A stretch of 64,000 nt of DNA, from contig PXRJ01000032.1 of NCBI GenBank assembly GCA_003021705.1, positions 1-64,000 of the forward strand. The letters are read 5' to 3'. This document shows, one piece after another, positions 53,451 to 59,149 of this stretch. The DNA is from Halobacteriales archaeon QS_3_64_16 (GTDB lineage Archaea > Halobacteriota > Halobacteria > Halobacteriales > Halococcaceae). Each line of letters opens with the position of its first letter. The first letter of the stretch is position 1. The translations under genes were made by a program, and so were the position numbers. The notes below the pieces were generated by a model that was not told the DNA's origin, made no database searches, and saw nothing but the letters and a program-made list of their open reading frames with translations.

Positions 53451-55520
53451 ATGGTCGAGTGGGTCGCGTCGGGAGCCGGTCGGCGGGCGCTCGACGGCGA
53501 GCGAACGATCGCTCTCGACGCGCCGGAGTGGTACGACGGGGACGAGCGAAGCAGCCTGGGTTCGGAGAGCGGGGCGATTACCGGGACGGTCGCGGGGCTC
53601 ACGGTACCGACGCCCGTCGTACTCGAAACGGCGGCAGGCCGGCGCGTTCACAGCAGTGATGCCGCGCCGATCGACCTCCCGTCGGGTGAGTACGAGCTCT
53701 CCGTTCCCGCACTTCGGTTCGACGGGGCCACACGAGTGGACGACCCAACGGCAAACGCGATCGGAGAACGCCCAGTCGCACGAGAGCTATCCGACGGAAC
53801 CGGACGGTGCCGATCCCTCCGGTTCAGCGGTCCGGCACGGATACAAGAGAAAAACGGGACGCTCTCGGCATGCTTTCTCGAACGAACGCCGATCGCGATC
53901 GGTTGTCGACGTGAACGGCCTGACGCCGAGCCGATCGTCGTCCCGAAGACGCCCGCCGGGATCGCAACGGCGATCACACACGCTGCGAGCGCCCACCGGT
54001 CGATCGGCCCGGATCGATCGCACCCAGCACTCAGGGATCACCCACCGCTGATCGAGTTCGGCGAAACAACAGAAATCCCCGATACCGTTCGCGCTGGGAC
54101 CCCCGAGACTGGTCTCCGGCTCTCGATGCCCGACTCGATCGCGACGCTACTGGTCGCAGCGCCGCTAGCGTACTACCTCGGAGCGACCGTCGAGGTCGAC
54201 GATCGGGAGTGGCCGGTGCTCTCGGAACCGGGCGGGTTCGAGCGGCGCTTCCGGTCGATGCCGGCGTTCCATCACGACGTCGCAGCGATGCTACGACGGG
54301 TCTTTTTGCTCGACTCGCTCACGCGGACGATCGACCCTGGCGAGGTGACTGCCGCCGGCGGGTCGGCTCTCGATCGCCTCGATATCCGTCCGGGCGAGCT
54401 CGTCGATGCCACGCCGACCGAGCGCCTGGAGCGGTACTGCGAGGTTCCTTCCTCACGGCTCAGGCCCGAACTCCCGGAGTGGCACCTCTCGACGTATGTC
54501 GAGCCCACCATCGAGAACGCCCGGAGCCTACCCTATCTACTCGAGGACCTCAGCCTCCTCTACTTGCCCACCGCCTCGGAACTCGACGGGAAGGGATTGC
54601 TTCGCCGATCGCTCGACGACTTCTACCGGGCGGAGGACATCGCATCGGTCGATCGCCTCGAACCGGAGCTACACGCCGGGCGCGCCCACGGGTGGCTCGC
54701 GCCGGGGACGCCGATCGACGTGTTCAAGAGTTCACCGAGTGCCTACGAACACCGCCTGATCTACGGCGATCGGGACCCTGAGATGAGCGGCGAACACGAT
54801 CGGGTCGCGGAGATCTACCGCGAGGGGGCGGTCGACTTGCCGGCGAACGTAACGGTCGAGACAGATCTGAGTAAACGCGAACTCGCGGCGGTCTTCGAGG
54901 CACCGAACGATTTCGTACACTTCATCGGCCACTGTGATACCGGTGGACTGTGCTGTCCGGATGGGAGTTTTTCTACTTCCTCGCTCGATGAATGTCGAAC
55001 ACGGACCTTCTTCCTGAACGCATGTGGCTCCTACCAGGAAGGACTCGGGCTAATCGAGGCCGGCAGCGTCGCCGGTGCGGTGACTCTTACTGCCGTGTTG
55101 AACGATCACGCCGCGACCGTCGGCACGGCCTTCGCACGCTTGTTGATCTACGGGTTCGACATCGAGCGGGCGATCCAGCTCGCCAGACGACGGATAATGA
55201 TGGGCAAGGACTACGCCGTCGTCGGCGACGGGACCCACGCGCTGACGAACGCGGGCCGTTATCCCCCGACAGTGATGTGGCTTCAGGAATGCGAAGGGAC
55301 CTTCCGGGCGACCTACGAGGTCGCCAGTACGAGCACAACCGGCGGCACCTACCGACCGCCCGTCGCCGAGGACGACCGCACGTATCTACAGGGCGTGAAC
55401 GCCGACATCGAACTCGCGCGCGCTGAGCTGCTGTCCGTGCTCCGGGGCTCGCCGCTCCCGGTGATCTACGACGGGGATTTCCACTGGTCGACCGAGCTCG
55501 CCGACCGTCTGGATAGCTGA
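53451..55520 (+). CDS. CHAT-like caspase-fold protease candidate
   Basis: A 689-residue haloarchaeal protein. The C-terminal part has the CHAT (caspase-clan) dyad: His494 in DFVHFIGHCDTGGLCC and Cys525 in TFFLNACGSYQEGLGL, followed by GSVAGAVTLTAVLNDHAATV and IERAIQLARRRIMMGKDYAV as in CHAT folds. Residues 1-430 are a large N-terminal region (ITGTVAGLTVPTPVVLETAA at the start; AFHHDVAAMLRRVFLLDSLT and LSTYVEPTIENARSLPYLLE later) that I do not recognise. CHAT proteases cleave partner proteins in regulatory or defence settings. TbsP is the next gene on this strand. Catalytic role is inferred from motif order. Confidence 0.8.
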   Translation: MVEWVASGAGRRALDGERTIALDAPEWYDGDERSSLGSESGAITGTVAGLTVPTPVVLETAAGRRVHSSDAAPIDLPSGEYELSVPALRFDGATRVDDPTANAIGERPVARELSDGTGRCRSLRFSGPARIQEKNGTLSACFLERTPIAIGCRRERPDAEPIVVPKTPAGIATAITHAASAHRSIGPDRSHPALRDHPPLIEFGETTEIPDTVRAGTPETGLRLSMPDSIATLLVAAPLAYYLGATVEVDDREWPVLSEPGGFERRFRSMPAFHHDVAAMLRRVFLLDSLTRTIDPGEVTAAGGSALDRLDIRPGELVDATPTERLERYCEVPSSRLRPELPEWHLSTYVEPTIENARSLPYLLEDLSLLYLPTASELDGKGLLRRSLDDFYRAEDIASVDRLEPELHAGRAHGWLAPGTPIDVFKSSPSAYEHRLIYGDRDPEMSGEHDRVAEIYREGAVDLPANVTVETDLSKRELAAVFEAPNDFVHFIGHCDTGGLCCPDGSFSTSSLDECRTRTFFLNACGSYQEGLGLIEAGSVAGAVTLTAVLNDHAATVGTAFARLLIYGFDIERAIQLARRRIMMGKDYAVVGDGTHALTNAGRYPPTVMWLQECEGTFRATYEVASTSTTGGTYRPPVAEDDRTYLQGVNADIELARAELLSVLRGSPLPVIYDGDFHWSTELADRLDS

Positions 55521-55705
55521 ATAGCGACGACGCTTGGTCCTAGCCGGGCTCGCGTAAAAGGAACGATCCCTTCGAACGGAGCGAACGATCGATTCGGCCA
55601 GCCTTAACGTAGCATTTATCACTCGAATCCTGCTTTAATGAGCGATTTAAGCCCCGATTATGCGATAAAATTAAATATGCTAACCCCGTTTAGACGATCG
55701 GAATC

Positions 55706-56521
55706 ATGACCCCAAATATGATCGAAAGAAACGTCGCCGACGTGCTTCGGGCGGCGCTTACGGACGCGTCGGGCGGCGTGCTCGCCGTTCATCCGTCGGC
55801 GGAGGCGATCGAGGAACTGATCGAGGTGCTGACCGAATTAGAAAAGGGGGCCCCGGTCAGACTGCTCGCACCGGAGAGCGTTCTCAAGGAGGTCACGGAC
55901 GATTTCATCCTCGCGAGTACGGCAGCCGACCGGATCGAGGAAGGCGTCCTCGAGTTACGCGTCGCCGAGGAGCCGCCGACGAACTCCCTGCTCATCACCG
56001 AGGGGGCGATCACCGCGGTCGTCGACGCCGGCGATCGGGTCGCCGGCCTCACGACAGAGGAGGAAGCGTTCGTCGGCAGCGCCAACGAACGGTACGAGGG
56101 GCTCTGGGCCGAGGCCAGTGACTTTTCGCTGCGGACGCCGCCGATCTCACGCGTCCGACAGACGCTCGTGGACGATCTGGGTTCCGGCATCGAGTCGGAC
56201 TTCGACGGGGTGCTTGCCTCTCTCGAGACCGCTCGTGGCGACGGCGATGGGCTCGACGAGGTGACGATCAGCTTACTCGTCGCCGCGAAGAACGAGGCGC
56301 TGCTGTACGACATCAGCAAGTGGGGCGAGGACGTCGGGATCGCCTCGAAGGCAACCTTCAGCCGCACGAAGACGAAACTCGAGGACATGGGGCTTCTCGA
56401 CACCGAGAAGGTCCCGATCGACGTCGGCCGACCCCGCTTGCGATTGATGCTGGGGGACGATCGCCTCCGGGACGCGGATACCGACCAGCTCGCGAGCGTC
56501 GCCCAGACGATCCTCACCTGA
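55706..56521 (+). CDS. tbsP: TbsP-like transcriptional regulator (DUF5821)
   Basis: A 271-residue protein. An N-terminal sensor-like alpha/beta region (RNVADVLRAALTDASGGVLA, VHPSAEAIEELIEVLTELEK) is followed by a beta-rich middle and a C-terminal winged helix: YDISKWGEDVGIASKATFSR, TKTKLEDMGLLDTEKVPIDV. This is the DUF5821/TbsP family, known in Haloferax as a regulator working with TrmB on gluconeogenic genes. The AT-rich promoter block upstream includes TAAAATTAAATATGC near 55665-55680. Confidence 0.85.
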   Translation: MTPNMIERNVADVLRAALTDASGGVLAVHPSAEAIEELIEVLTELEKGAPVRLLAPESVLKEVTDDFILASTAADRIEEGVLELRVAEEPPTNSLLITEGAITAVVDAGDRVAGLTTEEEAFVGSANERYEGLWAEASDFSLRTPPISRVRQTLVDDLGSGIESDFDGVLASLETARGDGDGLDEVTISLLVAAKNEALLYDISKWGEDVGIASKATFSRTKTKLEDMGLLDTEKVPIDVGRPRLRLMLGDDRLRDADTDQLASVAQTILT

Positions 56522-57353: not shown

Positions 57354-59047
57354 ATGAGCGTCGGGATCGTGGGGGCGGGACCCGCGACCGAGAGCGTCGC
57401 GACGGTACTCGGCGACGAAGAGATCGACACCGAGACCATCGAACCGGAAGCAGTCTCCGACGTCGATCTCGCGGTCGTCGTCGATAGCGTCGGGGCGTCG
57501 GGGTTCGATGCTGCGAACGAGGCAGCGCTTGCGGCCACGGACAGCGAGTGGATCGGCGTCGAACTCGGCGGGATCGGCGGGCACGCTCTCGAGGGCGTCG
57601 AGGCGGCGGTCACGGGGTTCGGCCCGGATACGGGCTGTTTCGAGTGTCTCGGTGCCCGGGTGGCGGCGAACGCCGATCCAGGAGGACGAAGAGGAGAGAC
57701 CGGCGGTGCCAGGAGTGACGGGATCGCCGAGTCGGGGTCATCGAGCGGCGTCAAGAGCGCGACCGCCCGCCTCGCGGGCACGATCGCCGGCCGGAAAGCC
57801 CTGCGAACACTCGCGGGCGCGTCGGTCGCTGGGGTGATCGAACTTCCCTACGCGGAGCGAGGGCTGCTCGCGGTACCGAACTGTTGGTGTTGCCCGGAGA
57901 GCGATCGAGGAAGTCGGTTCGGCAGCCTCGATCGGAACGACGAGGGTCGGGAACTAGAGGAGTCACTCGCTCGTGCCGAACGGGCGCTCGATCCCCGGCT
58001 CGGAGTCGTGAGCGAGATCGGGGAAGCCGCTTCGTTCCCGGTGCCGTACTACCTCGCGCGCCTGGGCGATACGACTTCCTTCAGCGACGCGCAGGCGACG
58101 CCACAGGCCGCAGGCGTCGCCGCTGACTGGAACGCGGCGTTCATGAAAGCGATCGGCGAAGGGCTCGAACGTTACTGTGCTGGCGTCTACCGGACCGAGG
58201 ACCTCATGAGAGCGAGGCCGGGCGATCTCGATCGGGCGATCGCTCCTTCGGAGTTCGTCCAACCGGACAGTGACAGCGACCCGGACGAACCGATCCGGTG
58301 GGTCACAGGTGAGACGCTCGCGAGCGGTTCGGAAGTACTGGTTCCGGCGACCGCCGCGCTCTTCCCACCACCTCAAGGACGCTTTCGGCCGGCGATCACG
58401 ACGGGTCTCGGGCTCGGGAACTCGGGCACCGAGGCGCTGCTGTCGGGGCTGTACGAGACCATCGAGCGGGACGCGACGATGCTCGGGTGGTACTCGACGT
58501 TCGAGCCATTAGGTCTCGACGTCGAGAGCGAACGGTTCAGGACGCTCGAGGGACGTGCCCGAGCGGTAGGGCTCTCGGCGACGGCACTGCTCGTGACCCA
58601 GGACGTAGACGTCCCCGTCCTGACGGTTGCACTCCACCGCGAGGGCGAGTGGCCGCGTTTTGCGGTCGGGTCGGACGCCGATCTCGACGCAGCACGGGCG
58701 GCCGAGTCCGCACTCGCCGAAGCGCTCCAGAACTGGATCGAACTCAGGGGGAGCTTCTCGATGTCGATCGCACGATCTCAGCCGGAAGCGTCGGGACTGA
58801 TGTCTCCGGCCGCGAGGAACTCGAGACCGTGCTCGATCGTCTCACCAGAGCAAGCCTCGGTTCCTATGGCGTTCGTCTCACGACGCGGGACATCGAGGAA
58901 CTCGGATTCGAAGCCGTCCGGGTACTCGTTCCCGCAGCACAGCCGCTGTTCACCGGCGAGCCCTTCTTCGGCGAGCGGGCACGCACTGTACCCGAGGGTT
59001 CGGGATTCGCACCGCGACTCGATCGCGATCCCCATCCCTATCCGTGA
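57354..59047 (+). pseudogene. E1-like/YcaO cyclodehydratase gene, frameshifted with internal deletion
   Basis: The N-terminal 200 residues form an E1-like domain (MSVGIVGAGPATESVATVLG) with zinc cysteines in GCFECLGARV and NCWCCPE. The YcaO domain follows: AAFMKAIGEGLERYCAGVYR, GLGLGNSGTEALLSGLYETI and ERDATMLGWYSTF. After LAEALQNWIELR the frame fails; the conserved end continues one frame over (RTISAGSVGTDVSGREELET) and finishes RLDRDPHPYP at 59047. That PHPYP end is the PxPxP motif essential in azoline-forming YcaO enzymes. About 20-28 residues expected at the junction (58750-58770) are missing. Intact homologues would ATP-dependently cyclise Cys/Ser/Thr in peptides or act on another amide; no precursor gene is seen nearby. 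Confidence 0.82.
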
Positions 59048-59149
59048 ATCGGATTCGACCGTTGCCGGGGGTCATCCGAGCCGGTTTCGACTCGTCGTAG
59101 CAGCTTTAATACGTCGTTAAAAGCGGGACGAGAGTCGGTTGCCAAGCGG

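Follow-up and report, generated by a model that had tools for sequence, protein, structure and literature searches.

CHAT proteases (PF12770), which include Csx29 of the TPR-CHAT Craspase and the SAVED-CHAT protein, carry a clan CD core in which a catalytic His is followed by a catalytic Cys, and this core is common to the haloarchaeal family described here. In one bacterial precedent, Csx29 cleaves Csx30 so that the inhibition of the sigma factor CASP-sigma is relieved (PMC10028731), and in another SAVED-CHAT initiates a proteolytic cascade (PMC11229360). In haloarchaea, high caspase-like activity has been reported for Haloferax volcanii, where the responsible proteins were not identified; the activity was caspase-specific and was seen in Pyrococcus and Sulfolobus as well (PMC3615174). 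Our literature search retrieved no published description of a haloarchaeal CHAT family. CHAT calls already exist for single members, since the plasmid copies, mostly annotated as "hypothetical protein", include one "CHAT domain-containing protein" and one "caspase family protein".

The haloarchaeal proteins follow the CHAT pattern in their C-terminal half and differ from Csx29 and SAVED-CHAT by a distinct N-terminal region and by their pairing with a winged-helix regulator of the TbsP type. Neither a SAVED nor a TPR domain was detected with Pfam in the window protein or in its orthologue L041, and PADLOC gave no defence-system match for 29 members, the locus neighbours being glyA and tbsP. Encoded beside a transcription regulator, the haloarchaeal CHAT protein can be likened to Csx29, which acts on a sigma-factor inhibitor (PMC10028731). 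An earlier note, made from the DNA sequence alone, had stated that no such role was known next to a gluconeogenic regulator; the next gene is indeed that regulator, TbsP, but bacterial CHAT proteins do act on inhibitors of transcription factors (PMC10028731). TbsP has been characterised in Haloferax volcanii (Hackley et al. 2024, as cited in PMC11834397).

The CHAT gene and its neighbours

The window analysed is a stretch of 64,000 nt from Halobacteriales archaeon QS_3_64_16 (contig PXRJ01000032.1, positions 1 to 64,000). On its plus strand, an ORF with an ATG start and a TGA stop (53451..55520) encodes the 689-residue protein announced by the note, and the codons of the two proposed catalytic residues are located at 54930..54932 (His494) and 55023..55025 (Cys525). 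High third-position GC and a pI of 4.9, both of haloarchaeal character, together with full-length haloarchaeal homologues and the invariant His and Cys, indicate that this is no chance frame. The N-terminal region (ca. residues 1-400; 53451..54650) is unassigned, as the note had it, with no Pfam match and a negative hhalign comparison to CHAT; in AF2 models it comprises a beta-rich part, a well-folded alpha/beta part (ca. 160-290) and a helical part. It is followed by the CHAT, or clan CD caspase-like, core (ca. residues 430-600; 54738..55250) and by a C-terminal alpha/beta tail delineated with AF2 (ca. residues 601-689; 55251..55517), in which G631, G648 and W679 are conserved.

The downstream gene (55706..56521, plus strand, 271 aa) has its ATG exactly 185 bases past the CHAT stop, the distance given in the note. 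Its identification as the transcriptional regulator gene tbsP is firm, the product being a certified equivalog (NCBIfam NF047393, 406.7 bits for a cut-off of 300) that matches both Pfam TbsP domains, TbsP_N and HTH_TbsP_C (PF19138 and PF23336; DUF5821 in current records). Farther 3', a YcaO gene (57354-59120) seems to be frame-shifted: its Pfam match covers the 325-position profile only up to position 234, and longer frames occur in its relatives. The presence of ycaO downstream of tbsP is limited to part of the genomes.

Evidence for a CHAT domain

The window sequence alone merely hints at CHAT, with a Pfam match (E 0.065, 13.1 bits) under the gathering score of 24. Most family members also score under this cut-off, which is exceeded by L041 (24.7 bits), G040 (34.1 bits) and G035. 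The identity is therefore settled at the level of the family, by profiles, fold and conservation. When the C-terminal half of the family was compared by hhalign with 12 bona fide archaeal CHAT proteins, a match with a probability of 97.2% (E 3.8e-11) was obtained in which the catalytic His and Cys of the two sides coincide; the probability was 96.6% with only the paralogues and 0.1% with the N-terminal half, used as a control. H494 and C525 are invariant in 94/94 aligned haloarchaeal members, 20 of which are distant paralogues.

The fold was predicted with AF2 for L041, a Haloarcula amylovorans orthologue with an intact core, from an input alignment of 59 sequences. Its core displays the canonical clan CD order beta-alpha-beta-alpha-beta(H)...beta(C)-alpha, with pLDDT of 70-93 over most of its length, and places His and Cys directly past two adjacent strands (489-495 and 520-526). 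In a Foldseek search of the PDB, the best match of this model was the SAVED-CHAT filament (8tl0, E 8.9e-7), followed by separase, gingipain R and procaspase-3 (E 2e-5 to 8e-4). These clan CD families (C50, C25 and C14, the last represented by caspase-3) have the same catalytic order as the haloarchaeal family; gingipain R and separase are Arg-directed. Past the core, the separase and gingipain alignments to L041 have a high rmsd, and phmmer and profile searches of the PDB sequences found no clan CD match, so that nothing among the solved structures is matched at the sequence level.

The note's CHAT assignment is thus upheld by the hhalign result, the L041 fold and the dyad. The comparison with CHAT and separase folds that it suggested was informative for L041, which matches both SAVED-CHAT and separase, the model of the window sequence being poor. 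A fold unrelated to the caspase clan, or a His/Cys pair not conserved in orthologues, would have spoken against the assignment; the L041 fold belongs to the caspase clan and the pair is conserved. Profiles and the predicted fold together indicate that the haloarchaeal family consists of real CHAT (clan CD) domain proteins, and its members are predicted cysteine endopeptidases.

A core strand is missing from the window copy

Protein alignment, and DNA alignment to L002, L071, L001 and L072, revealed a deletion that the note had missed: the 11 residues bearing strand beta-1 of the caspase fold are absent from the window copy, which corresponds in the DNA to an in-frame gap of 33 nt (site at ca. 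54778..54779, plus strand). Each of the 93 other members retains this strand, the closest relative (83-85% identity) among them. When the window sequence was modelled with AF2 (56 orthologues), the core was poor, with pLDDT below 50 at residues 517-604, and the model had no PDB match. The missing strand is a likely reason for this poor model, and the intact orthologue was modelled instead.

Since the in-frame deletion takes out the first strand of the core, the allele found here may be dead or altered. We give an even chance to the view that it is decaying or inactive, its core being unable to fold without beta-1 even though His494 and Cys525 persist. The occurrence of beta-1 in 93/93 other members and the folding of the intact orthologue, as opposed to the window sequence, point in this direction; on the other hand, the reading frame is intact, the remaining protein is well conserved, and the fragmented state of the assembly (70 contigs, 79% complete) makes a misassembly at a short repeat possible. 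The weaker model may also stem in part from the different query and alignment, as the two predictions differ in both. This question concerns the allele alone and is compatible with all the functional explanations considered below; statements on function apply to the family, and the window allele may be inactive.

Distribution of the family

CHAT family matches occur in 132 of the 146 sampled haloarchaeal genomes, and homologues of the window gene were collected from 69 named-genome loci. A tree of 104 members separates two deep clades, clade A being linked to tbsP and clade B forming the second. Among genomes with multiple copies, one (G040; L194) has three clade-B CHAT genes in tandem, and another (G139; L177-L189) shows a large parallel expansion, with 13 CHAT and 16 TbsP-family matches in a single haloarchaeal genome.

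Beyond Haloarchaea, homologues (ca. E 1e-80 or better) were found in four genomes of family f18 of the same phylum (L247-L250), near a gene resembling DnaG primase. His and Cys are kept in three of the four; the other has R494 and D525, a substitution that would make it a natural pseudo-enzyme. No relative of the CHAT family was found on viral contigs.

Pairing of CHAT with tbsP

The note had proposed to look for conservation of the CHAT-tbsP pair across haloarchaea. In a whole-genome survey, at least 86 genomes out of 140 had a CHAT gene immediately before a collinear tbsP, less than 2 kb away, and tbsP accompanies the CHAT gene in 65/69 named-genome loci. The synteny of glyA is about equally conserved (67/69), so part of the CHAT-tbsP linkage may be inherited gene order, and conserved order alone is no proof of function.

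Stronger evidence for a tie between the two genes comes from pairs that have re-formed elsewhere. In genus g2, which belongs to the same family as the window genome, a clade-B CHAT gene lies directly upstream of tbsP. G139 has four CHAT-to-TbsP pairs for ca. 0.03 expected by chance, a figure that we estimated from the numbers of genes and the size of the genome; the four CHAT genes concerned group together in the tree, and a single pair may have been duplicated. The Halobaculum salinum plasmid NZ_CP058580 carries a head-to-head arrangement in which 135 bp separate a TbsP-family gene from a CHAT gene, and looser pairs occur in genus g9 (near-divergent) and in G040. The pairing of CHAT with TbsP genes is thus conserved and has been repeatedly re-formed.

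The regulator is more widespread than the pair, tbsP being kept in 144 of 146 genomes and in many of them without a neighbouring CHAT. This includes the genus assigned to Haloferax (g25), in which tbsP has no adjacent CHAT among the matches listed; the gluconeogenic role of TbsP was established in Haloferax. TbsP can therefore work without an adjacent CHAT.

In 66/70 loci, the last 150 bp before tbsP contain the same 8-mer, AAAATTAA. In the window it is located at 55667..55674 (plus strand), ca. 31 bp before the tbsP ATG, where it is likely to be the tbsP core promoter. The regions upstream of CHAT and of tbsP were compared for operator-like motifs and have neither a palindrome nor a k-mer in common. 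As tbsP seems to own its promoter-like element, which is conserved, and as the two upstream regions have no such motif in common, strict co-transcription is unlikely and the two genes probably do not form a simple single operon. In TbsP itself, the segment between the two domains has a conserved LRTPP; nothing ties this motif to CHAT and it is not claimed as a conserved cleavage site.

Other partners of the family

Most clade-B copies lie away from tbsP. In ca. 20 clade-B loci (L204, L199, L134, L135, L207, L127, L130, L141, L237, L240 and others), a DUF7504 gene (PF24336) occurs immediately upstream on the same strand, with gaps mostly below 160 nt. The DUF7504 profile is weakly KaiC-like: E is only ca. 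0.1, yet nearly all of its top PDB matches are KaiC. The operon-like arrangement makes DUF7504 a second candidate partner system of CHAT.

Genus g25 was assigned to Haloferax because two of its genomes have 86-88% DNA identity to a Haloferax alexandrinus plasmid. Each of its five genomes has one CHAT match (L134, L135, L199, L200, L204), and the neighbourhood is DUF7504-CHAT-HalX-TrmB in 5/5, which places a sugar regulator of the TrmB family two genes away from CHAT. The term "stand-alone", applied by the note to the window protein, is misleading in this light, given that tbsP is the next gene in clade A and that many paralogues have DUF7504 directly upstream. As a whole, the note read the CHAT domain and its gene neighbourhood correctly and gave an incomplete picture of the partners.

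Proposed role and alternatives

The reading that we favour, with slightly less than even confidence, is that a latent CHAT endopeptidase is coupled to the adjacent TbsP-type regulator and cuts either TbsP or a controller of TbsP output. The gene belongs to clade A, the TbsP-linked branch of a haloarchaeal family of predicted CHAT cysteine peptidases. Its product starts with a large N-terminal region that probably has a sensing or regulatory function, followed by the protease core with His494 and Cys525 and then by the short alpha/beta tail. In orthologues, the protease would stay latent until a signal or a partner acts on the N-terminal region; once released, it would cut TbsP, or a protein controlling TbsP output, and transcription would change. 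Proteolytic activity, latency and a target in TbsP or its regulon are all putative here. A protease-regulator module of this kind fits a CHAT gene that has stayed next to a single type of DNA-binding regulator and has repeatedly joined it anew. Counted against it are the loss of the dyad in one of four non-haloarchaeal homologues, the window allele without beta-1, the many tbsP genes without a CHAT neighbour, the tbsP promoter, the glyA synteny and the clade-B copies located elsewhere.

In the main rival explanation, TbsP would control the transcription of CHAT, and CHAT would act on unrelated substrates, as in stress proteolysis, and not on TbsP. Regulators often adjoin the genes under their control, the head-to-head pairs of the Halobaculum plasmid and of genus g9 have the classic divergent arrangement, and other CHAT paralogues have HalX response regulators, TrmB regulators and histidine kinases as neighbours. 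A common palindrome or k-mer is nevertheless missing from the CHAT and tbsP upstream regions, and the collinear order, CHAT first and tbsP downstream, dominates. We hold this explanation to be less likely than the favoured one. It is also conceivable, albeit improbable, that the glyA-CHAT-tbsP order is ancestral and simply inherited, CHAT and TbsP being functionally unrelated. Such passive inheritance agrees with a glyA neighbourhood about as conserved as that of tbsP and with the many genomes having tbsP and no CHAT. One inherited gene order cannot, however, explain the pairs re-formed at other loci and in the other CHAT clade (g2, the four of G139, possibly duplicates, the Halobaculum plasmid, g9 and G040).

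Implications

The two-partner pattern, in which clade A goes with TbsP and much of clade B with DUF7504, suggests partner-gated CHAT modules outside CRISPR and defence. The family also supplies candidate genes for the caspase-like activity of Haloferax (PMC3615174), the genus assigned to Haloferax having a single candidate CHAT gene per genome. Caution is required in linking CHAT to this activity because of its caspase specificity and its occurrence in archaea outside this survey of the family. That caspase-like proteases throughout the class would cut TbsP-type regulators, with DUF7504 serving other signalling outputs, and would explain part of this activity is a speculative extension to which we attach little probability. 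With its genetic tie to a regulator of central carbon metabolism, this caspase-fold family, present in nearly all sampled haloarchaea, is a concrete candidate with which protease control of archaeal transcription can be tested.
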